Shown here one piece after another: positions 3,748 through 31,667 of a DNA stretch of 40,635 nucleotides (positions within the stretch are counted from its first letter, which is position 1; each line of letters starts with the position of its first letter). Origin of the DNA: an uncultured Clostridia bacterium (GTDB lineage Bacteria; Bacillota; Clostridia; Oscillospirales; Acutalibacteraceae); the NCBI GenBank assembly GCA_944376655.1, contig CALWDJ010000019.1, forward strand, positions 1 through 40,635. Reading direction: 5' to 3'. Below the pieces are notes generated by a model, which had not been told where the DNA came from, did not search any database, and saw only the letters and a list, made by a program, of their open reading frames with translations. The position numbers were made by a program, and so were the translations under genes.

Positions 3748-3776
3748 TTGACAAAATAAAAAAGCGGTGTTATACT
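3748..3776 (+). promoter_or_regulatory. Promoter of the first T-box leader
   Basis: TTGACA (3748-3753), 17-base spacer and TATACT (3771-3776) place the transcript start just before the conserved GACGAAGA of the leader. Confidence 0.85.
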
Positions 3777-3792
3777 ATTTGAAAATTGATAA

Positions 3793-4056
3793 AGGCATTG
3801 ACGAAGACGGTCCGGAATGACTGCTTTAAGAGAGCCGGTGGTTGGTGTGAACCGGCAGTACGTATTCCAGAGTGACCCATCGCTTCCGAGCCGGAGCACT
3901 GAATTCGCAAGACAGTAGGTTCTCCCGTGATTGCTGCGTAAAGGCATAGGGATTGTTGGATCCCAAGAGGTGGCGGTTTTTCAGCCGCAATTTGAGTGGT
4001 ACCGCGGATGTGTATTCACACCCGTCTCAAGGATTTCTTGAGACGGGTGTTTTTTA
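3793..4056 (+). ncRNA. T-box leader 1 (uncharged-tRNA sensor)
   Basis: The leader starts with GACGAAGA, contains the stem I distal block AGAGAG-stem-GGTTGGTGTGAA-stem, the AAAGGCATAGGGATTG region, and the T-box itself, GAGTGGTACCGCGG at 3995-4008. A terminator follows. Uncharged tRNA would pair its NCCA end with TGGT, which implies discriminator base A, and its anticodon with the specifier. By position relative to CTTCCGAG (canonical CTTTGAG), the specifier reads ATC (Ile) at 3879-3881 followed by a purine, but the usual preceding GAA is absent. The T-box call is firm; the Ile reading is tentative. Confidence 0.92.
4019..4056 (+). terminator. T-box 1 terminator
   Basis: CACCCGTCTCAAG pairs with CTTGAGACGGGTG and six T follow. 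The 5' arm lies just downstream of the TGGTACCGCGG box, as needed for the antiterminator/terminator choice. Confidence 0.9.
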
Positions 4057-4078
4057 TTATACAAAGGAGGCATTTAAA

Positions 4079-6349
4079 ATGGCAACAGTATCAACCGACA
4101 GTCAGCTTAAAGAGGTTGCGGTGAGAATCCGAGAAATGCGTGAGATATGCGGCATTTCCGAGGCTGATATGGCGCAGAAAACAGAGGTAAGCACAGAAGA
4201 ATACAGACTTTACGAGGAAGGAAAAAAGGATTTTCCCTTCACCTTTATACATAAATGCTCGCTCGCTTTCGGAATCGGCATTACCGACCTGCTTGAGGGA
4301 CAGAGCGCCCACCTTTCCTCCTACACCGTGACCCGCAAGGGTCAGGGTCAGCAGACCGCGAAAGAGGACGGAATCGAGATACAGAACTTAGCCCCGCTTT
4401 TCAGAAAGAAGATAGCCGAGCCGTACTGGGTAAGATACGAGTACCATTCCGAGCTTCAGGATAAGCCGATACATCTCACAAAGCATTCCGGTCAGGAGTT
4501 CGACTTTGTAATGAGCGGCAGGCTTAAGGTCCAGATAGGTGAAAACGTCGAGTATCTGAGCGAGGGAGACAGCATTTATTACAACTCCTCAACCCCTCAC
4601 GGAATGATAGCGGTTGACGGCAGGGACTGCCTGTTTGTCGCCGTGGTGCTTCCGGGCGAGGACGTAAAGGAGGACATAATCCGCGGCACGATAGTCTCTG
4701 CCCATTCCGGCACGAAGGAATACGTTTCCTCAAAGTTTATCGAGACGGTTGAGGACGAGAACGGCGTGCTTCAGAAGATAGACTTCAAAAATGAGGATAA
4801 GTTCAATTTCGGCTTTGATATCGTTGACGCGATAGCCAAGAAAAATCCCGACAAGCTGGCTATGCTTCATATAGATAAAAACAAGACCGAGCGCAGATTT
4901 ACCTTCAATGATATGAAGCGTGCTTCCAACCAGTGCGCCAACTATTTCAAGTCTTTAGGCATAAAGAAAGGCGACCGCGTAATGCTGGTGCTTAAAAGGC
5001 ATTATCAGTTCTGGTACGCGATACTGGCGCTTCACAAGCTCGGGGCGATAGCGATACCCGCTACCAACCTTCTGCAGCAGCACGATTTTGAGTACCGCTT
5101 CAACGCGGCGGACGTAAGCGCCATAGTCTGCACCGCCGACGGTGACGCCGCGCATCAGGTGGATCTGGCGGAGCCTTCAAGCCCGACTCTTAAAACCAAG
5201 ATACTCGTAGGCGGCAAGCGTGACGGCTGGCACGACTTTGACGAGGAGTTCCAGCTGTTCAGCGCGCATTTCTACCGCACCGAGGACACCGCCTGCGGCG
5301 ACGACCTTATGCTTATGTTCTTTACCTCGGGAACCACGGGATACCCGAAGATAGCCGCCCACAGCTATAAATACGCGCTCGGGCACTACATAACCGCCAA
5401 ATACTGGCACGGCGTTGACGAAAACGGTCTGCACTTCACGATTTCAGAGACCGGCTGGGGCAAGGCGCTCTGGGGCAAGCTGTACGGTCAGTGGCTCTGC
5501 GAGGGCGCGGTATTCACCTACGACTTTGACCGCTTTGACGCGTCGGATATACTCCCGATGTTCGCGAAGTACAATATAACCACCTTCTGCGCTCCGCCTA
5601 CGATGCTTCGTATGATGATAAAGGAAGATATCTCAAAATACGACCTTTCGTCGATAAAGCATATGACCACGGCGGGCGAGGCGCTTAACCCCGAGGTTTA
5701 CAGGCAGTTTGAGAAAGCTACGGGGCTTCAGATAATGGAGGGCTTCGGTCAGACCGAGCTTACTCTTGTCATAGCCAATCTTATGGGCAATCCGCACAAG
5801 CTCGGCTCAATGGGCATGCCCACCCCGCTTTACGATGTCGATATACTTGACCCGGACGGCAATCCGGTACCCGACGGCGAGACCGGCGAGATAGTGGTAA
5901 AAACCTCCGAGAAAGTGCCCTGCGGTCTGTTCGAGGGCTACTACAAGAACGAGGAAAAGACAAAAGAGGTATGGCACGACGGTTATTATCATACCGGCGA
6001 TACCGCCTGGAGAGACGAGGACGGCTTCTACTGGTACGTCGGCCGTGTGGACGATGTTATCAAGTCTTCGGGCTACCGCATAGGGCCGTTCGAGATAGAA
6101 AGCGTTATAATGGAGCTTCCCTATGTGCTTGAGTGCGGCGTTTCCGCCGCGCCCGACGAGATACGCGGACAGGTGGTAAAGGCGAGCGTAGTGCTTGTAA
6201 AGGGCACCGAGGGCACCGAGGAGCTTAAAAAGGAAATCCAGAACTATGTTAAGCAGCACACCGCTCCTTACAAGTATCCGAGGATAGTGGAGTTCAAGAC
6301 CGAGCTGCCCAAGACCATAAGCGGAAAGATACAGCGCAACAAGCTGTAA
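4079..6349 (+). CDS. XRE-HTH / cupin / AMP-forming acyl-CoA synthetase fusion, copy 1
   Basis: Three parts are visible in 756 residues. Residues about 10-72 form an XRE-type HTH (VRIREMREICGISEADMAQK). Residues about 125-200 form a cupin (HSGQEFDFVMSGRLKVQIG and STPHGM). Residues about 255-756 form an ANL-family ligase with FFTSGTTGYPK (~414), EGFGQTE, YHTGD, DDVIKSSGYRIGPFEIE and the C-terminal catalytic lysine motif PKTISGKIQRNK. The ligase resembles short/medium-chain acyl-CoA synthetases and would activate an acid with ATP and CoA. ATG at 4079 follows AAAGGAGG; a longer frame from 3953 would lie in the T-box. Substrate is inferred, not shown: a branched-chain or aryl acid fits the neighbours. 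The HTH and cupin could sense the product or serve as relics of a fused regulator. Confidence 0.9.
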   Translation: MATVSTDSQLKEVAVRIREMREICGISEADMAQKTEVSTEEYRLYEEGKKDFPFTFIHKCSLAFGIGITDLLEGQSAHLSSYTVTRKGQGQQTAKEDGIEIQNLAPLFRKKIAEPYWVRYEYHSELQDKPIHLTKHSGQEFDFVMSGRLKVQIGENVEYLSEGDSIYYNSSTPHGMIAVDGRDCLFVAVVLPGEDVKEDIIRGTIVSAHSGTKEYVSSKFIETVEDENGVLQKIDFKNEDKFNFGFDIVDAIAKKNPDKLAMLHIDKNKTERRFTFNDMKRASNQCANYFKSLGIKKGDRVMLVLKRHYQFWYAILALHKLGAIAIPATNLLQQHDFEYRFNAADVSAIVCTADGDAAHQVDLAEPSSPTLKTKILVGGKRDGWHDFDEEFQLFSAHFYRTEDTACGDDLMLMFFTSGTTGYPKIAAHSYKYALGHYITAKYWHGVDENGLHFTISETGWGKALWGKLYGQWLCEGAVFTYDFDRFDASDILPMFAKYNITTFCAPPTMLRMMIKEDISKYDLSSIKHMTTAGEALNPEVYRQFEKATGLQIMEGFGQTELTLVIANLMGNPHKLGSMGMPTPLYDVDILDPDGNPVPDGETGEIVVKTSEKVPCGLFEGYYKNEEKTKEVWHDGYYHTGDTAWRDEDGFYWYVGRVDDVIKSSGYRIGPFEIESVIMELPYVLECGVSAAPDEIRGQVVKASVVLVKGTEGTEELKKEIQNYVKQHTAPYKYPRIVEFKTELPKTISGKIQRNKL

Positions 6350-6369
6350 AAGTATTTTATCTAAAAATA

Positions 6370-6398
6370 TTGACAAATTCCTTTTGTTGTGATAAGAT
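6370..6398 (+). promoter_or_regulatory. Promoter of the second T-box leader
   Basis: TTGACA (6370-6375), 17-base spacer and TAAGAT (6393-6398) lie just after copy 1 of the fusion gene. The second unit therefore has its own start. Confidence 0.8.
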
Positions 6399-6405
6399 GT
6401 ATTAC

Positions 6406-6693
6406 ATCAAAAAACAAAGGCGCTGACGAAGAGGATACGGCTGATGCTTTTAAAGAGAGATAACGGCTGGTGCGAGTTATCAGAGAAAGGCCTGTATTTG
6501 TAGCTTCCGAGCCGGGAGGAAGAAAGTTTGAAACGAGTAGAACCTCCCCGTGACTGCTGCGTAAAGGCATAGGAATTGTTTGATTCCAAGAGTGGCGGCT
6601 TTTCTGCCGCAATTTGAGTGGTACCGCGGGCTACCGATATATATGTATTTCGGCGCTCGTCTCAAAGTCATAACTTTGGGACGAGCGTTTTTT
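6406..6693 (+). ncRNA. T-box leader 2 (uncharged-tRNA sensor)
   Basis: The layout matches leader 1: GACGAAGA, AGAGAG-stem-GGCTGGTGCGAG-stem, TAAAGGCATAGGAATTG and the box GAGTGGTACCGCGG at 6616-6629, then a terminator. TGGT again implies a tRNA with discriminator A. In the equivalent position before CTTCCGAG the triplet is GTA (Val) at 6500-6502, followed by G. As in leader 1 the canonical GAA before the specifier is missing, so the Val reading is tentative. It controls the long operon that includes the oxidoreductase and aminotransferase. Confidence 0.92.
6654..6693 (+). terminator. T-box 2 terminator
   Basis: CGCTCGTC.CAAAGT pairs with ACTTTG.GACGAGCG and is followed by six T, ahead of the ribosome binding site of copy 2. 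Confidence 0.9.
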
Positions 6694-6727
6694 CGTCCCG
6701 AAAGGCTGAAGCCGAGGAGGAAAAAGT

Positions 6728-9019
6728 ATGAAACAGATAACAGGGCTTGATTACAAAATCAAGGAAATGGCGGCGCGCATAAGGGAGCTGCGCGAGATTG
6801 AGGGACTTTCGGTTGCCGATATGGCACAAAAGACCGCCGTAAGCGAGGAGGAGTACACCGCCTGTGAAAACGGCGAGAGCGACTTAAACTTCGCGTTCAT
6901 ATACCGCTGCGCGCTGGCGTTCAACGTGGACGTGACCGATATTATCGAGGGTCAGAGCCCGACTTTGAGGTCTTACACCGTGACTAGGAAGGGCGAGGGT
7001 CAGCGCATTGAAAAGGCGCACGGAATGACCTATTACAACCTTGCCGCCGCTTTCCAGAACAGGATAGCCGAGCCGCTTTACGTCAAAAGCGCTTACAGCG
7101 AGGAGGCGCAGCACCGCGATATTGAGCTTACCACTCATGCCGGTCAGGAATGCGACCTTATAATAGAGGGAAAGCTCAAGGTTCAGGTGGGCGAGCATAA
7201 GGAGATTTTAGGCCCCGGGGACAGCATTTATTACGACAGCTCGACACCGCACGGAATGATTGCCGTTGACGGCAAGGACTGTATATTCTACGCGATAGTG
7301 CTTAACCCGACCGGTGAGCCTATCCCCGAGCTTGAGGACGAAAAGCCGGTCGCCCAGAATGTGGCTCCCCACACGCCGGACACAAAGAACAGGATATACA
7401 GAAAGTACACCGAGGTCACAAAGGACGAGAACGGAACTCCGGTTTCCATAAAATTCAAGAATACCGAGCATTTCAACTTCGCTTTTGACCTTGTGGACGC
7501 TCTGGCAGATAAGGACCCTGACAAGCTGGCGATGCTGCATATCTCAAAGGATAAGACCGAGCGCAGGCTGACCTTCAAGGATATGAAAAAGGCTTCAAAC
7601 CAGTGCGCCAACTATTTCAAGTCCTTAGGCATAAGAAAAGGCGACCGCGTAATGCTGGTGCTTAAAAGGCATTACCAGTTCTGGTACGCGATACTGGGGC
7701 TTCATAAGCTCGGAGCGATAGCGATACCCGCCACAAACCAGCTTCAGGAGCACGATTTTGAGTACCGCTTCAAAACCGCCGGCGTTTCGGCGATAATCTG
7801 CACCGCCGACGGCGACACGGCGCATCAGGCGGATATAGCGGCGGCAAGCTGTCCTGAGCTTAAGCATAAGCTGATAGTAAACGGCACGCGTGAGGGCTGG
7901 CGCTCTTTTGATGAGGAATACACACTTTACAGCACCCATTACAACCGGCCGGACGACGCTCCGGGCGGGGACGACCTTATGCTGATGTTCTTTACATCGG
8001 GAACCAGCGGATACCCGAAAATTGCCGCTCATAACTATAAATATGCCCTCGGACATTTCCACACGGCGAAATACTGGCACAATGTCGACCCCGACGGACT
8101 GCATTTCACGATTTCTGATACCGGCTGGGCAAAGGCAATGTGGGGCAAGCTGTACGGTCAGTGGCTCTGCGAGGCGGCAACCTTCGTTTACGATTTCGAC
8201 AGGTTCGACGCGGCGGATATTCTTCCGATGTTCGCGAAATACAATATAACCACCTTCTGCGCGCCGCCCACGATGCTCCGTATGATGGTAAAGCAGGATA
8301 TTTCAAAGTACGATTTCTCGTCGGTAAAGCATATGACCACAGCCGGCGAGGCGCTCAATCCCGAGGTTTACAGGCAGTTTGAAAAGGCTACGGGACTTCA
8401 AATATTAGAGGGCTTCGGACAGAGTGAAAGCACAATGATAATCGGCAATATGACCGGCGCTCCGCATAAGATAGGCTCAATGGGCAAGCCGGCGCCGATT
8501 TACGACGTTGATATAGTAGACTCTGACGGCAATCCGGTACCTCCCGGAGAGACCGGCGAAATAGTGATAAACCTTAAAAACGGTTATCCCTGCGGTCTCG
8601 CGGTAGGATATTACGGCGATGAGGAAAAGACAAAGGAAACCTGGCGCGACGGCTATTACCACACCGGCGACACCGCGTGGAAGGACGAGGACGGCTTTTA
8701 CTGGTACGTCGGCCGTGTGGACGATGTTATCAAGTCTTCGGGCTACCGCATAGGGCCGTTTGAGATAGAGAGCGTTATAATGGAGCTTCCCTATGTGCTT
8801 GAGTGCGGCGTTTCGGCGGCTCCCGACCCGGTGCGCGGTCAGGTGGTAAAGGCGAGCATAGTGCTGGTGGACGGCACAGAGGGCACTGAGGAGCTCAAAA
8901 AGGAAATCCAGAACTATGTAAAGCAGCACACCGCGCCTTACAAATATCCGCGTATAGTAGTGTTCAGGGACAGTCTTCCTAAAACTACCAGCGGAAAAAT
9001 TCAGCGTAATAAGTTATAA
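6728..9019 (+). CDS. XRE-HTH / cupin / AMP-forming acyl-CoA synthetase fusion, copy 2
   Basis: This 763-residue paralogue has the same order as copy 1: XRE-type HTH at about 10-72 (IRELREIEGLSVADMAQK), cupin at about 125-200 (HAGQECDLIIEGKLKVQVG, STPHGM), then an ANL ligase with FFTSGTSGYPK, EGFGQSE, YHTGD and PKTTSGKIQRNK. Part of the ligase DNA is nearly identical to copy 1, while the HTH and cupin are more diverged, so the two may sense or use different acids. ATG at 6728 follows GAGGAGG. It heads the operon with the P-loop ATPase, ferredoxin, oxidoreductase and aminotransferase. Probable role: forming the acyl-CoA consumed by the oxidoreductase. Substrate unproven. Confidence 0.9.
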   Translation: MKQITGLDYKIKEMAARIRELREIEGLSVADMAQKTAVSEEEYTACENGESDLNFAFIYRCALAFNVDVTDIIEGQSPTLRSYTVTRKGEGQRIEKAHGMTYYNLAAAFQNRIAEPLYVKSAYSEEAQHRDIELTTHAGQECDLIIEGKLKVQVGEHKEILGPGDSIYYDSSTPHGMIAVDGKDCIFYAIVLNPTGEPIPELEDEKPVAQNVAPHTPDTKNRIYRKYTEVTKDENGTPVSIKFKNTEHFNFAFDLVDALADKDPDKLAMLHISKDKTERRLTFKDMKKASNQCANYFKSLGIRKGDRVMLVLKRHYQFWYAILGLHKLGAIAIPATNQLQEHDFEYRFKTAGVSAIICTADGDTAHQADIAAASCPELKHKLIVNGTREGWRSFDEEYTLYSTHYNRPDDAPGGDDLMLMFFTSGTSGYPKIAAHNYKYALGHFHTAKYWHNVDPDGLHFTISDTGWAKAMWGKLYGQWLCEAATFVYDFDRFDAADILPMFAKYNITTFCAPPTMLRMMVKQDISKYDFSSVKHMTTAGEALNPEVYRQFEKATGLQILEGFGQSESTMIIGNMTGAPHKIGSMGKPAPIYDVDIVDSDGNPVPPGETGEIVINLKNGYPCGLAVGYYGDEEKTKETWRDGYYHTGDTAWKDEDGFYWYVGRVDDVIKSSGYRIGPFEIESVIMELPYVLECGVSAAPDPVRGQVVKASIVLVDGTEGTEELKKEIQNYVKQHTAPYKYPRIVVFRDSLPKTTSGKIQRNKL

Positions 9020-9051
9020 TTTTTTTAAATAGTATTATAAAGGGAGGAAGT

Positions 9052-9714
9052 ATGGATTACAAACGACTGACCCTCATCTGCGGCCATTACGGCAGCGGAA
9101 AGACAAATGTCGCCGTAAATCTTGCGTTTGACCTCAAAAGGCAGTATAATAAAACATCGATAGCGGACCTTGATATAGTTAATCCCTACTTCCGCACAAA
9201 GGACAGCACGGAAGAGCTTGAAAGGGCGGGAATAGAGCTTATCTGCTCGGATTATGCCGGAACCAATGTGGATATTCCGGCTCTGCCGCAGCAGATGTAT
9301 TCCATAACAGACGACCGCTCGAAAAAGGTGATACTCGATATAGGGGGAGACGACCGCGGCGCTCTGGCGCTCGGGAGGCTTGCTCCGGCGATACTTGCCG
9401 AGAACGATTACGAGATGCTTATGGTGATAAACCGTTTCCGTCCGCTCACAAGGGACGCGCGTTCTACGGTAGAGGTAATGCGGGAGATCGAGTACGCAGG
9501 AGGCATACCCTTTACCGGACTTGTAAACAACTCAAATCTGGGCGAGGAGACTACGGCGGAGGACATTCTCTCATCGGTGGCTTACGCAAATGAGGTATCC
9601 GAGCTCTCGTCGCTTCCCGTAAAATTCACATCGGTACACGACACGGTTTATGCCGCTGTCGCGGGCAAAATAAACAATTTATTCCCGTTAAAGCTCCAGC
9701 CGAAAATAGGCTGA
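9052..9714 (+). CDS. ParA/MinD-like P-loop ATPase in the oxidoreductase operon
   Basis: The 220 residues open with a Walker A motif GHYGSGKTN at 11-19, followed by DLDIVNPYFR at 39-48 and a Walker B-like VILDIGGDD at 93-101. This is the layout of deviant P-loop SIMIBI ATPases (ParA/MinD/CobB group). GGGAGG precedes ATG at 9052; the gap to copy 2 is 32 bases and to the ferredoxin also about 32, so it is co-transcribed. Its job is unknown. Membership between an acyl-CoA synthetase and an iron-sulfur enzyme suggests a maturation or assembly role, which is inference only. Confidence 0.85.
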   Translation: MDYKRLTLICGHYGSGKTNVAVNLAFDLKRQYNKTSIADLDIVNPYFRTKDSTEELERAGIELICSDYAGTNVDIPALPQQMYSITDDRSKKVILDIGGDDRGALALGRLAPAILAENDYEMLMVINRFRPLTRDARSTVEVMREIEYAGGIPFTGLVNNSNLGEETTAEDILSSVAYANEVSELSSLPVKFTSVHDTVYAAVAGKINNLFPLKLQPKIG

Positions 9715-9746
9715 ACCGGGGAAATTCAAACAAAGGAGACTTGAAA

Positions 9747-9953
9747 ATGGCTAAGCTGACATTCAAAACCGATAACTGCAAGGGCTGCGGACTCTGTGTT
9801 GACGTATGTCCCAAACACGTTCTGCAGTTGGCGGCGGACAAGATCAACAAAAAAGGACATCATCCGGTCGAGGCTGTAAAGGAAGACGAGTGCATCGCCT
9901 GCGCTTTCTGCGCCACAATGTGCCCCGACTGCATTATAAAAATAGAGAGGTAA
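9747..9953 (+). CDS. vorD: 2x[4Fe-4S] ferredoxin, delta subunit of 2-oxoacid:ferredoxin oxidoreductase
   Basis: The 68-residue protein has two cluster motifs, CKGCGLCVDVCP and CIACAFCATMCP, of the bacterial 2[4Fe-4S] type. It would pass electrons between the catalytic subunits and free ferredoxin. ATG at 9747 lies eight bases after AAAGGAG; TTG at 9741 is rejected. It directly precedes the alpha, beta and gamma genes, the usual arrangement for VOR/KOR-type enzymes with separate subunits. Confidence 0.9.
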   Translation: MAKLTFKTDNCKGCGLCVDVCPKHVLQLAADKINKKGHHPVEAVKEDECIACAFCATMCPDCIIKIER

Positions 9954-9962
9954 GTGAAAAAT

Positions 9963-11030
9963 ATGTCAGAAAAGGTTTTGATGAAGGGCAACGAGGCGCT
10001 GGCGGAAGCCGCCATAATCGCCGGCTGCCGTCATTATTTCGGTTATCCCATAACCCCGCAGACCGAGGTTGCCGCCTATATGGCAAAGAGAATGCCGAAA
10101 ATCGGGGGAACGTTTTTGCAGGCTGAAAGCGAGATAGCCGCCATAAATATGGTTTACGGCGTATCCTCGACCGGACACAGGGTTATGACATCGTCTTCAA
10201 GCCCCGGAATTTCGCTTAAGGGCGAGGGACTTTCCTATCTTGCCGGTTCAGACCTTCCGGCGCTTGTTATCAACGTACAGCGCGGCGGTCCGGGACTCGG
10301 CGGAATACAGCCTTCGCAGGCGGACTATTTCCAAGCTACAAAGGGCGGCGCGCACGGCGACTTCCATATGATAGTGCTGGCTCCCGCTTCGGTTCAGGAG
10401 ATGGCAGATCTTACCGTAAAGGGCTTTGAGCTTGCCGATAAGTACCGTATGACCTCTATGATACTGGCGGACGGTACTATGGGTCAGATGATGGAGCCGG
10501 TTTCTCTCGAATACGATATAAAGCCCGCTCCCGAAAAGCCGTGGGCGACTACGGGTACAAAAATGCAGAGGGAACACAATATAGTAAACTCACTCTCTCT
10601 CGTTCCCGAGGAGCTGGAGAAGTTCAATATCGAGCGCTACAAGAGATATGACGAGGTTGAGAAAAACGAGGTCATGTACGAGGAGTATATGATGGACGAC
10701 GCCGAGATCTGCATAGCGGCGTTCGGCATTGCCGCCCGTGTCTCAAAGAACGCTATCACCGAGGCGAGAAGACAGGGTATAAAGGCCGGAATGATAAGAC
10801 CGATAACCCTCTGGCCGTTCCCGAAGACGCCCTTCAAAAAGGCGGCGCAGAGCGTAAAGCAGTTTATTTCTGTTGAGCTTTCAATGGGACAGATGATAGA
10901 GGACGTTCGTCTGGCGACCGAATGCAGGGTGCCCGTAACCCTCTGCAACCGCGTCGGCGGTATGATACCGTCGCCGGAGATGGTACTTGAGGCTATTAAG
11001 GAAGCCGCGAAAAACGGAGGTGCAAGATAA
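9963..11030 (+). CDS. vorB: 2-oxoacid:ferredoxin oxidoreductase alpha subunit
   Basis: This 355-residue subunit shows the family's N-terminal pyrimidine-binding domain: GNEALAEAAIIAGCRHYFGY, YPITPQTE at 28-35, then an ESEIAAINMVYGVSSTG segment and a C-terminal transketolase-like domain. With beta and gamma it interconverts a 2-oxoacid plus CoA and an acyl-CoA plus CO2, using ferredoxin and thiamine diphosphate. ATG at 9963 follows GAGAGG; GTG at 9954 is less likely. The stop overlaps the beta start (TAATG). The VOR versus KOR subtype cannot be fixed by eye; the aminotransferase next door favours branched-chain 2-oxoacids. Confidence 0.9.
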   Translation: MSEKVLMKGNEALAEAAIIAGCRHYFGYPITPQTEVAAYMAKRMPKIGGTFLQAESEIAAINMVYGVSSTGHRVMTSSSSPGISLKGEGLSYLAGSDLPALVINVQRGGPGLGGIQPSQADYFQATKGGAHGDFHMIVLAPASVQEMADLTVKGFELADKYRMTSMILADGTMGQMMEPVSLEYDIKPAPEKPWATTGTKMQREHNIVNSLSLVPEELEKFNIERYKRYDEVEKNEVMYEEYMMDDAEICIAAFGIAARVSKNAITEARRQGIKAGMIRPITLWPFPKTPFKKAAQSVKQFISVELSMGQMIEDVRLATECRVPVTLCNRVGGMIPSPEMVLEAIKEAAKNGGAR

Positions 11031-11785
11031 TGGTAGTATTTGAAAAACCCCACGCGCTGACAGATGTGCCGATGCACTACTGCCCGGGCTGTACGCACGG
11101 AATAGTTCACCGCCTTGTCGCCGAGGTTATAGACGAGTTAGGGATAGAGGGAAAAACGGTCGGAATAGCGCCGGTCGGCTGCTCGGTCATGGCGTACAAT
11201 TATTTCAACTGTGATATGATAGAGGCGGCTCACGGCCGCGCTCCGGCGGTTGCCACAGGCGTTAAGCGCGCCGAGCCGGACAATATCGTGTTTACATATC
11301 AGGGCGACGGAGATCTTGCGTCAATCGGTACTGCCGAAACGGTACATTCCGCCGCGAGAAACGAGAATATAACCGTTATATTCATAAACAACGCGATTTA
11401 CGGTATGACCGGCGGACAGATGGCTCCTACCTCTCTGCCCGGTCAGGTGACCCAGACCTCTCCCTACGGCAGGGACGTTACCCAGTGCGGTTTCCCCGTA
11501 AAGGTCTGCGAAATGCTTTCACAGCTTGACGGACCGGAATATCTTGAGCGTGTCGCCGTAAATAATGTAAAGAATGTAAAGAACGCTAAAAAGGCAATCA
11601 AAAAAGCCTTCCGGAACCAGATAGACGGCAAGGGATTTTCGCTTGTTGAGGTTATTTCAAGCTGTCCGACAAACTGGGGTCTTACTCCGCAGAACGCGCT
11701 TAAATGGATAGACGAGAAAATGATACCCTATTACCCGCTGGGCGTTTATAAGGACCGCTCTGCCGCCAAGGAGGAAACGAAATGA
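11030..11785 (+). CDS. vorA: 2-oxoacid:ferredoxin oxidoreductase beta subunit (TPP-binding)
   Basis: The 251 residues include HYCPGCTHG at 16-24 and C51, candidate ligands of the proximal iron-sulfur cluster. The thiamine diphosphate motif starts GDGDLASIGTAET at 92 and continues to NNAIYGMTGGQMAPT. These are hallmarks of the catalytic beta subunit. It overlaps alpha by one base and gamma by four (ATGA), indicating translational coupling. The residue pattern suits VOR/KOR enzymes and not the single-chain pyruvate enzyme. Confidence 0.92.
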   Translation: MVVFEKPHALTDVPMHYCPGCTHGIVHRLVAEVIDELGIEGKTVGIAPVGCSVMAYNYFNCDMIEAAHGRAPAVATGVKRAEPDNIVFTYQGDGDLASIGTAETVHSAARNENITVIFINNAIYGMTGGQMAPTSLPGQVTQTSPYGRDVTQCGFPVKVCEMLSQLDGPEYLERVAVNNVKNVKNAKKAIKKAFRNQIDGKGFSLVEVISSCPTNWGLTPQNALKWIDEKMIPYYPLGVYKDRSAAKEETK

Positions 11786-12327
11786 GTACAACACAGTTTT
11801 TGTTCGCCGGATTCGGCGGTCAGGGTATACTCTTCGCCGGAAAATTCGCGGCTTATAAGGGACTTATCGGGGAAAAGCAGGTGAGCTGGCTGCCGTCATA
11901 CGGACCCGAAATGCGCGGAGGCACAGCAAGCTGCAGCGTTATAGTAAGCGATGAGCCGGTAGGCTCGCCTATCGTTTCAAGACCTGACGTGCTTATTGCC
12001 ATGAACCTGCCCTCGCTTGACAGGTATGAAAGCGCCGTTGCCGTCGGAGGAACCATTTTTGTCGATTCAACCCTTATCGACCGTAAGGTTGAGCGTGATG
12101 ACGTGGCGGTTTACTATGTGCCGGCGACCCGTCTCGCGAGCGATAACGGTATGCCGACCCTTGCCAATATGATACTTATGGGCAATATTTTAAAGGTAAT
12201 GAACGAGTTTGACGAGGAAAGCGTAACCGCCGCGCTCAAAAAGGTTATTTCCGCAAAGCACGCGGATATGCTTGACATAAACCTTAAGGCGCTGAAAATC
12301 GGCGCGGAATATAAAGAGGAAGTGTAA
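11782..12327 (+). CDS. vorC: 2-oxoacid:ferredoxin oxidoreductase gamma subunit
   Basis: The 181-residue subunit starts with the typical [14 protein letters not shown] block near residues 8-21 and has [12 protein letters not shown], both standard for gamma subunits that complete the active site and bind CoA. ATG overlaps the beta stop codon. With the upstream ferredoxin it gives a four-subunit enzyme encoded in the order delta-alpha-beta-gamma. Confidence 0.9.
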
Positions 12328-12330
12328 GCC

Positions 12331-13395
12331 ATGGAAATCAAAATCGTTAAAACCGACTGTCCGAAGGAAAAGCCGGACAGCAGCACATTAGGCTTCGGAA
12401 AGATTTTCACCGACCATATGTTTATTATGGATTATTCCCGCGAGCAGGGCTGGCACGACGCGAGGATAGTGCCGTTCGGCTATATTTCTCTGCATCCGGC
12501 GTCAACCGTGCTGCATTACGGCTCTGAAATTTTTGAGGGGCTTAAGGCATACCGCCGCGCGGACGGCAAGGTTCAGCTTTTCAGACCTATCGAGAATGTC
12601 CGCAGAATGAACAATTCCGCCGAAAGACTCTGCCTGCCTCAGATAGACGAAAAGGACGCTATGCAGATACTTGAGACCTTTGTTTCTGTCGAGCAGGACT
12701 GGACTCCGTCAGCGGAGGGCACGTCCCTTTATCTGCGCCCCTTTATGTTCGGAAACGACGAGTCGCTGGGCGTTCACGCGGTGCATAACGCTACTTATAT
12801 GATTATCGCGTCACCTGTCGGAAGCTATTATAAAGAGGGCATAAACCCCGTAAAGATTATGATAGAGGACGAGGACGTGCGCGCGGTAAGAGGCGGTACA
12901 GGCTATGCCAAGTGCGGCGGAAACTACGCCGCAAGCAACCGCGCCGGCGAGAGGGCCGAGCAGAAGGGATATTCACAGGTGCTCTGGCTTGACGGCGTTG
13001 AGCGAAGGTATATAGAAGAGGTCGGCGCTATGAACGTTATGTTCAAAATCGGCGGCGAGATTGTGACCCCGAAGCTCACGGGCTCAATTCTTCCGGGTAT
13101 TACCAGAAAGTCCTGCATTGAGGTGCTTAAGGGCGAGGGCTATACCGTGAACGAGAGACTTTTAAGCGTTGACGAGCTTGGCGAGGCGCTTAAGAACGGA
13201 ACGCTTGAGGAGGCTTGGGGCTGCGGTACCGCGGCGGTCGTTTCCCCGATAGGCGAGCTTTGCTACAAGGGCGTTAAATACACCATCAACAACGGTGAAA
13301 TCGGCAAGGTCACACAGCACCTTTACGATACCCTCACCGGAATACAGTGGGGCAAAATCGAGGATAAGTACGGCTGGACATATCCGATTAAGTAA
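12331..13395 (+). CDS. ilvE: Branched-chain amino acid aminotransferase
   Basis: This 354-residue fold-type IV PLP enzyme has the expected catalytic lysine K194 in GTGYAKCGGNYAAS, and the family blocks EIFEGLKAYR, YLRPFMFG and EEVGAMNVMF. It exchanges the amino group between glutamate and branched-chain 2-oxoacids. It starts 3 bases after vorC behind GAGGAAGTG and ends the operon at a strong terminator. Its co-transcription with the oxidoreductase under a T-box points to synthesis of valine, isoleucine or leucine. The enzyme family itself is certain; the direction is inferred. Confidence 0.95.
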   Translation: MEIKIVKTDCPKEKPDSSTLGFGKIFTDHMFIMDYSREQGWHDARIVPFGYISLHPASTVLHYGSEIFEGLKAYRRADGKVQLFRPIENVRRMNNSAERLCLPQIDEKDAMQILETFVSVEQDWTPSAEGTSLYLRPFMFGNDESLGVHAVHNATYMIIASPVGSYYKEGINPVKIMIEDEDVRAVRGGTGYAKCGGNYAASNRAGERAEQKGYSQVLWLDGVERRYIEEVGAMNVMFKIGGEIVTPKLTGSILPGITRKSCIEVLKGEGYTVNERLLSVDELGEALKNGTLEEAWGCGTAAVVSPIGELCYKGVKYTINNGEIGKVTQHLYDTLTGIQWGKIEDKYGWTYPIK

Positions 13396-13400
13396 CTGAA

Positions 13401-13436
13401 AAAAGCGTATCCGTATTTTTGTACGGATACGCTTTT
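13401..13436. terminator. Terminator ending the T-box 2 operon
   Basis: GCGTATCCGTA pairs with TACGGATACGC, flanked by A4 and T4 on the two sides. Confidence 0.88.
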
Positions 13437-13450
13437 ATGCTGTTAATAAA

Positions 13451-31591: not shown

Positions 31592-31667
31592 CCGGGTGTG
31601 GCGCAGCTGGTAGCGCGCTTGACTGGGGGTCAAGAGGCCGCAGGTTCAAGTCCTGTCACTCGGACCA
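31592..31667 (+). tRNA. tRNA-Pro (anticodon GGG)
   Basis: The 76 bases fold as a cloverleaf: acceptor CCGGGTG/CACTCGG (one G-T pair), anticodon stem CTTGA/TCAAG around CTGGGGG, giving anticodon GGG, and T arm CAGG-TTCAAGT-CCTG. Discriminator A and CCA are encoded. It lies at the edge of the mobile-element remnant, a typical integration site. Confidence 0.95.

Follow-up and report, generated by a model that had tools for sequence, protein, structure and literature searches.

Does an operon that joins acyl-coenzyme A (acyl-CoA) synthetases to a 2-oxoacid:ferredoxin oxidoreductase and a branched-chain aminotransferase break branched-chain amino acids down, or does it make them? The question is raised by a stretch of 40,635 nucleotides (hereafter the window; contig CALWDJ010000019.1, assembly GCA_944376655.1) from an uncultured Clostridia bacterium of the Acutalibacteraceae. 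Two AMP-forming acyl-CoA synthetase (ligase) genes, ACS1 and ACS2, each preceded by a T-box leader, are followed there by the oxidoreductase genes (vor) and by ilvE. Our analysis indicates that this operon very probably serves to build isoleucine and valine out of branched short-chain acids found in the surroundings.

T-box leaders and gene content of the operon

The gene families, the two T-boxes, their specifier codons and the conservation of these, as well as the absence of the usual isoleucine and valine pathway, were established by computation. Ten T-box matches were returned by a genome-wide search, two of them inside the window, where the leaders, promoter-like sites, terminators and genes of the operon lie on the + strand. 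Leader 1 (3789..4032) scored 96 bits with the Rfam model RF00230 (gathering score 93, E 5.2e-20); an earlier note, made from the sequence alone, had called it a T-box and suggested this search, and it was right. Leader 2 (6414..6667) fell below the gathering score (83.6 vs. 93 bits, E about 8.2e-19 to 9e-19), though its match spans the full length of the model, and it is a T-box by its anatomy and not by its RF00230 score. Both leaders contain a stem I specifier codon, an AGAGA loop, the antiterminator sequence TGGTACCGCG and a competing terminator. Just 5' of each lies a promoter-like site, identified by consensus match only (TTGACA-17-TATACT at 3748..3776, 11 of 12 consensus positions, and 6370..6398, 10 of 12). 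According to the Rfam alignment and the stem I pairing, in which GAAG pairs with CUUC, the specifier codons precede the 3' strand of stem I: AUC (isoleucine) at 3879-3881 in leader 1 and GUA (valine) at 6500-6502 in leader 2, both followed by G and the strand CUUC.

The intrinsic terminators that compete with antiterminator 1 (4018..4050, 15-pair stem and T run, folding z -8.47) and antiterminator 2 (6652..6689, 17-pair stem and T run, folding z -6.83) are the two longest among the 11 matches of a terminator scan. Since the scan as a whole showed no excess over shuffled sequences (mean 11.3), only these two were taken into account, by virtue of their length and place. The rule for reading specifiers was checked on the eight other T-boxes of the same genome, L010 being left out of the readings. 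AAC was read before asnS and ACC before thrS (both genes over NCBIfam cut-offs), UUC before pheT, with one intervening open reading frame (ORF), and UGG ahead of a TrpX-like gene that scores below its cut-off; another UGG T-box runs off the end of its contig, and a GCU T-box precedes an aminotransferase of no certain role.

Leader 1 is followed by ACS1 (4079..6349; start ATG at 4079, stop ending at 6349) and leader 2 by ACS2 (6728..9019). The earlier note had described one T-box heading the operon and one synthetase fusion: the former stands for leader 1 and misses the second T-box before ACS2, and the latter is actually two separate genes. Both ligases consist, by Pfam, of a helix-turn-helix (HTH) domain, a cupin domain and an AMP-forming acyl-CoA synthetase; AMP-binding, AMP-binding_C and Cupin_2 are over the cut-off in both, and HTH_19 is over it in ACS2 and below it in ACS1. 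The two proteins are 71% identical. The isoleucine-regulated ACS1 is predicted to act on 2-methylbutyrate and the valine-regulated ACS2 on isobutyrate.

Behind ACS2 lie genes for a CobQ/MinD-like P-loop protein (9052..9714; PF01656, 28.8 bits, cut-off 25.4), a two-[4Fe-4S] ferredoxin that is the delta subunit of the oxidoreductase (9741..9953; PF00037), the alpha subunit VorB (9954..11030; POR_N; NF005507, 540.7 bits, cut-off 399), the thiamine diphosphate-binding beta subunit VorA (11030..11785; PF02775), the gamma subunit VorC (11782..12327; PF01558) and the branched-chain aminotransferase IlvE (12331..13395; NF009897, 479.9 bits, cut-off 307; TIGR01123, 395.5, cut-off 250.05). The four subunits and the aminotransferase named in the earlier note were all recovered: IlvE exceeds its NCBIfam equivalog cut-off and VorB that of its model, and the beta, gamma and delta subunits were found by Pfam, yet none of these three reaches the cut-offs of the NCBIfam models listed. 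A perfect 15-base inverted repeat 3' of ilvE (13401..13436), read directly and absent from the terminator scan list, is a possible operon end.

Specifier codons of related ligase genes

The specifiers were compared in two collections. The first consists of 60 regions of the order and comes from 57 genomes of a 68-genome ligase set (defined below), which has 67 members apart from the window's own genome. The second consists of 80 named loci, the 80 best among 585 confirmed matches, belonging by name to Clostridia and Erysipelotrichaceae. With the window included, 209 ligase genes passed the filter, and 207 were left after two exact copies had been dropped. A specifier was readable in 183 of the 207. 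It was the isoleucine codon ATC in 122 of 122 readable genes of the ACS1 type, and a valine codon in 61 of 61 readable genes of the ACS2 type (GTA in 53, GTC in 8).

The parser used for these readings scored candidates blind to the codon and gave an output for 175 of the 207 genes; in 81 genes there were two or more candidates to choose from. Taken alone, it returned the expected amino acid in 165 of 175 cases and another codon in 10, and in nine of these ten a codon for the expected amino acid was among the candidates. Eighteen of the 183 specifiers, namely the ten misses and eight genes with no output, were read by eye with the expectation known. Two earlier parsers were set aside: a regular-expression version misread many specifiers, and a version that looked for a purine after the codon left several unread. 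The ACS2 genes L126 and L139 carry another form of T-box, which ends in TGGTACCACG and still reads valine by eye. Upstream of the ligase in L098-L100, stem I with ATC (isoleucine) is kept, the usual TGGNACC is absent and TGGT remains.

On a FastTree tree of 204 of the proteins, the isoleucine and valine labels (122 and 59) need a single change, at a branch with support 100, against a mean of about 50 for shuffled labels, a contrast that is inflated by near-copies among the 204. Eleven further regions were added for more distant relatives, of which eight hold a ligase with 42-44% identity and three hold vor genes alone; no T-box core was found in these three with a pattern that would miss variant T-boxes. 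At L205, the T-box upstream of the 42% identical ligase at 4828 reads GTC (valine) by eye. A phylum survey with a strict cut-off found the ligase in 7 of 398 genomes, the window's own genome included.

Isoleucine and valine pathway genes

In the genome of the window (95.9% complete), ilvC and ilvD were not found, and neither was ilvB, whose top match scored 19.1 bits (cut-off 538.35); each of the three genes is present in 14 of 14 control genomes. The search for ilv genes, which the earlier note had put forward as a check on its biosynthetic reading, came out in favour of that reading. The regulation points the same way, the specifiers naming isoleucine and valine, the very products expected from 2-methylbutyrate and isobutyrate.

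A survey of the order covered 197 genomes, 68 with the ligase and 129 others. The 68-genome set comprises those genomes whose listed match scored 975 bits or more and had no internal stop, and was defined after the survey results had been viewed; the short partial matches of G123, G182, G088, G185 and G044 were left out, as were the stop-holding ones of G096, G069, G140 and others. The matches to ACS1 in G096:C6, G069:C50 and G140:C39 have one or two internal stops and may be split or neighbouring genes, not a fusion. ilvC was found in 11 of 68 ligase genomes compared to 80 of 129 others (Fisher p 3.6e-10) and ilvD in 15 of 68 compared to 81 of 129 (p 4.5e-8); these p values are only indicative, because the surveyed genomes are relatives of one another and not all of them are complete, and the ilvD counts include G042, G072, G113 and G152 despite scores of 346-376 bits (about 425-473 in the rest), which may belong to other dehydratases. 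Conversely, vorB was present anywhere in the genome (E 1e-90) in 65 of 68 ligase genomes and in 55 of 129 others. Within the family of the window, ilvC is absent in the three genomes of the same genus and present in all 11 others. Among 24 operon-carrier genomes, six have ilvC, eight an ilvD-family match and five an ilvB match over the cut-off.

Substrate clues in ACS1 and ACS2

The top NCBIfam match of both ligases, below the cut-off, was MbcS (NF047394). The solved structure nearest to ACS1 is 3etc (E 2.5e-186; the next, 2.5e-105), which we take to be Macs, the medium-chain acyl-CoA synthetase of Methanosarcina acetivorans. According to the available part of a study of the Macs enzyme, 2-methylbutyrate is its preferred acid, and substrate binding depends critically on Trp259 (PMC10455477). 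Counting from the YHTGD motif (431-435 in the numbering of that paper, 454-458 in the 3etc chain), Trp259 aligns with W465 of ACS1. Four positions from this acyl-pocket tryptophan position, residue 461 is the strictest column of the catalytic domain in the alignment: glycine in 122 of 122 isoleucine-regulated and alanine in 59 of 59 valine-regulated ligases. Macs carries glycine in this column. The second-best column, residue 464, holds leucine in 120 and methionine in 2 of the 122 members of the isoleucine group, and methionine (45), alanine (12) or threonine (2) in the valine group. Isobutyrate is the smaller of the two acids, and an alanine at 461 would fit a correspondingly smaller pocket. 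Columns 96, 99, 102 and 116, in the stretch that joins the HTH to the Pfam cupin match, separate the two groups as fully, and one may speculate that they fit a sensor which tells isoleucine from valine.

Gene neighbourhood and the leucine T-box operon

Of the 80 named loci, 17 were too short to judge; in 59 of the remaining 63, vorB lies 3' of ACS1. The P-loop gene accompanies vorB in 85 of 86 vorB-holding loci, on the opposite strand in L087. In L056 (G022) two overlapping pieces (1-71 and 68-353) make up the VorB match, possibly owing to a frameshift or an assembly error. Gene order varies: ilvE stands on either side of vor, and a LeuA relative with a third ligase, LIG3, stands before, behind or divergent. 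This variation may be read as repeated rearrangement around one function.

The earlier note had extended its proposal to all the branched-chain amino acids. For isoleucine and valine this agrees with the T-boxes of the window; no leucine T-box occurs in the window, and the same genome has one on another contig (L101:8531-12577, G000:C2, - strand). There, a leucine T-box (CUC) precedes the LeuA relative and LIG3, an AMP-forming ligase fused to a xylose-isomerase-like TIM barrel; many relatives have both genes in linkage with the vor operon. In 37 rows with a LeuA relative, CTC or CTG was among the parser candidates for the preceding T-box in 22, in several beside other codons. Three rows have a core that the parser left unread (L043, L126, L133), and L043 is CTC by eye. 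The usual core is missing from 12 of the 37: four lie at contig ends, and in L157 and L165 a variant core is present and CTC can be read by eye.

RDGEQ and HxHND are active-site motifs of 2-isopropylmalate synthase. Compared with one canonical LeuA, they are absent in 33 of 33 rows of the LeuA relative (those of L048 and L119 sharing one contig), and the protein does not reach the isopropylmalate synthase cut-offs (263 vs. 532 and 250 vs. 598.7). The LeuA dimer (allosteric) domain is retained and is its most conserved part. The genome of the window has one aconitase-family and one Iso_dh-family gene, located together 3' of a gene that looks like a Re-citrate synthase by eye. Leucine synthesis through LeuA was thus rejected for this genome, because the only aconitase- and Iso_dh-family genes adjoin the citrate-synthase-like gene and the LeuA relative is below the cut-offs and devoid of the motifs. 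G186 (88% complete), G113 and G071 gave neither an aconitase-family nor an Iso_dh-family match, no search for LeuD having been made, and G186 still carries the leucine T-box with the LeuA relative and LIG3 (L053). From these sequences we infer that LIG3 is a better candidate for isovalerate activation and that the LeuA relative may be a sensor or scaffold. A wider scheme, with three reductive branches under isoleucine, valine and leucine T-boxes, a ligase for each, HTH-cupin parts that would make ACS1 and ACS2 enzyme-regulators sensing their own product or substrate, and a catalytically dead LeuA relative as leucine sensor of the third branch, is tentative and, in our judgement, rather doubtful.

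Elsewhere in the window, a thiamine pyrophosphate (TPP) riboswitch (1431-1550, +, 60.1 bits) stands ahead of an ORF that runs to 2228 and encodes a membrane protein, thiamine-transporter-like by eye, and a tRNA gene is found at 31592-31664 (+, 64.4 bits).

Discussion

In the pathway that we propose, ACS1 would convert 2-methylbutyrate, and ACS2 isobutyrate, to the CoA ester, with ATP going to AMP. Vor would then act in the reductive direction, joining the CoA ester with CO2 at the expense of reduced ferredoxin to give 3-methyl-2-oxopentanoate or 3-methyl-2-oxobutanoate, which IlvE would transaminate to isoleucine and valine, respectively. Each ligase gene would be switched on through its own T-box in response to the cognate tRNA in uncharged form. 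Transcripts that start at leader 2 would continue through the shared vor-ilvE genes, and those from leader 1 might do so as well, if they pass terminator 2.

Operons of this kind are usually read as catabolic, in the manner of amino acid fermenters: isoleucine and valine are transaminated, and Vor oxidises the 2-oxoacids to acyl-CoA, yielding reduced ferredoxin as an energy source. Vor and aminotransferases are indeed reversible. However, isoleucine and valine T-boxes are expected to raise expression in shortage, AMP-forming ligases would waste ATP instead of yielding it, neither a phosphotransacylase nor an acid kinase was found among the eight operon proteins scanned, and no other route to isoleucine or valine was found in the genome. 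The ATP cost of such ligases suits synthesis. Given the T-box control, ligases of the AMP-forming type and the lack of ilv genes, we rejected the catabolic explanation as the principal one and consider it very improbable.

An equally small probability is given to the view that the ligases supply branched acyl-CoA primers for branched membrane lipids, with Vor and IlvE converting amino acids or acids to such primers. In its favour are the match of both ligases to MbcS, albeit below the cut-off, and a precedent in Staphylococcus aureus, whose short-chain acyl-CoA synthetase is presumably MbcS itself. As far as the consulted portion of that work goes, the S. aureus synthetase supports branched fatty acid synthesis (PMC10026030). 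On the other hand, regulation by tRNA-Ile and tRNA-Val, one ligase each, fits the supply of amino acids and not that of lipids, and the operon also contains ilvE and vor. Amino acid and lipid uses may coexist. Least probable of all is that amino acids or peptides are imported and the operon merely keeps 2-oxoacid pools in balance, as might be needed for pantothenate or to equilibrate acids with amino acids: plain auxotrophy would match the absence of ilv genes just as well, but not the finding that each ligase type is under a T-box for a single amino acid wherever the specifier was readable (183 of 183).

Several of our results speak against a role in isoleucine and valine synthesis, or against its generality. 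Ten of the 175 parser outputs were other codons and were corrected by eye. No readable T-box was seen in 24 of the 207 ligase genes; some of these are at contig ends or directly 3' of another ligase gene, and the ACS1 genes L063, L090-L093, L097, L137 and L166 and the ACS2 genes L134, L147 and L184 seem truly to have no usual T-box. In the regions with distant ligases (42-44% identity), the T-box core was found in one of eight, variant forms being outside the pattern. The fact that 35 of the 60 order regions (L065-L086, L088-L100) hold a ligase with no adjacent vor genes, several of them cut by contig ends, means that the link between ligase and Vor is not universal. These 35 regions comprise 34 of the ACS1 type and one of the ACS2 type, with ilvE further on in L076. 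The isoleucine specifier is present in 29 of the 34, of which 26 have the usual core and 3 a variant one; in the other five no T-box was seen, and the single ACS2-type ligase reads valine. Eleven of the 68 ligase genomes also have ilvC, and the Fisher tests overstate independence, the surveyed genomes being related. Finally, neither ligase reaches the MbcS equivalog cut-off (452 and 439 vs. 850), and residue 461 may only mark the split of two clades, for which the column comparison makes no correction.

With these reservations, synthesis of isoleucine and valine accounts for the operon best, and comparison with known systems shows what is familiar in it and what is not. Macs (3etc) is the closest solved structure to ACS1, its preference for 2-methylbutyrate is on record in the part of the literature available to us (PMC10455477), and its pocket tryptophan is kept as W465. 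The two differ in that the HTH-cupin part of ACS1 has no counterpart in 3etc, since the match starts at residue 216 of ACS1. The leaders resemble the T-box riboswitches of amino acid genes in specifier, AGAGA loop, TGGTACCGCG and competing terminator, and differ from them in their targets, which here are acyl-CoA synthetases. We know of no acyl-CoA synthetase described as a T-box target, and a partial literature search found no report that joins T-boxes with these enzymes. Vor, the 2-oxoisovalerate:ferredoxin oxidoreductase (EC 1.2.7.7), is known mostly from amino acid breakdown. The oxidoreductase of the window is like it in having four subunits, with VorB over its NCBIfam cut-off, and unlike it in adjoining ligases under isoleucine and valine T-boxes, with the beta, gamma and delta subunits below their cut-offs. 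The operon of the window also speaks against the catabolic function that is commonly annotated for vor operons of this type.

Pathways of this type have been described before; the genes, the division of labour between T-boxes and the sensor-like fusions are new as far as the literature was searched, and that partial search found no assignment of bacterial genes to the reductive isoacid route. In the extracts available of the papers cited here, isovalerate is described as directly carboxylated to leucine in the rumen and isobutyrate and 2-methylbutyrate as precursors of valine and isoleucine, with Allison 1966, Allison and Peel 1971 and Robinson and Allison cited for isoacid conversion (PMC7356843); rumen methanogens are reported to use 2-methylbutyrate and isovalerate for isoleucine and leucine (PMC10658910); and isoacids have been tested as feed supplements (PMC10311502). 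A 2020 paper on a Prevotella regards the reversal that starts from branched acids as something a ferredoxin oxidoreductase could carry out, yet as "not proven yet" (PMC7709123), a statement which, in the extract seen, does not sit easily with the older rumen tracer work. The operon leads to a prediction of the acid taken by each ligase, and the marker that it provides, the T-box codon with the ligase type or residue 461, would let genomes that look auxotrophic be re-read as able to make isoleucine, valine and perhaps leucine from cross-fed acids. The operon offers candidate genes for a rumen chemistry reported since the 1960s (PMC7356843): the conversion is the same as in the rumen isoacid route, whose bacterial genes are unnamed in the portions of the cited work at hand, and for which both genes and their control are proposed here.

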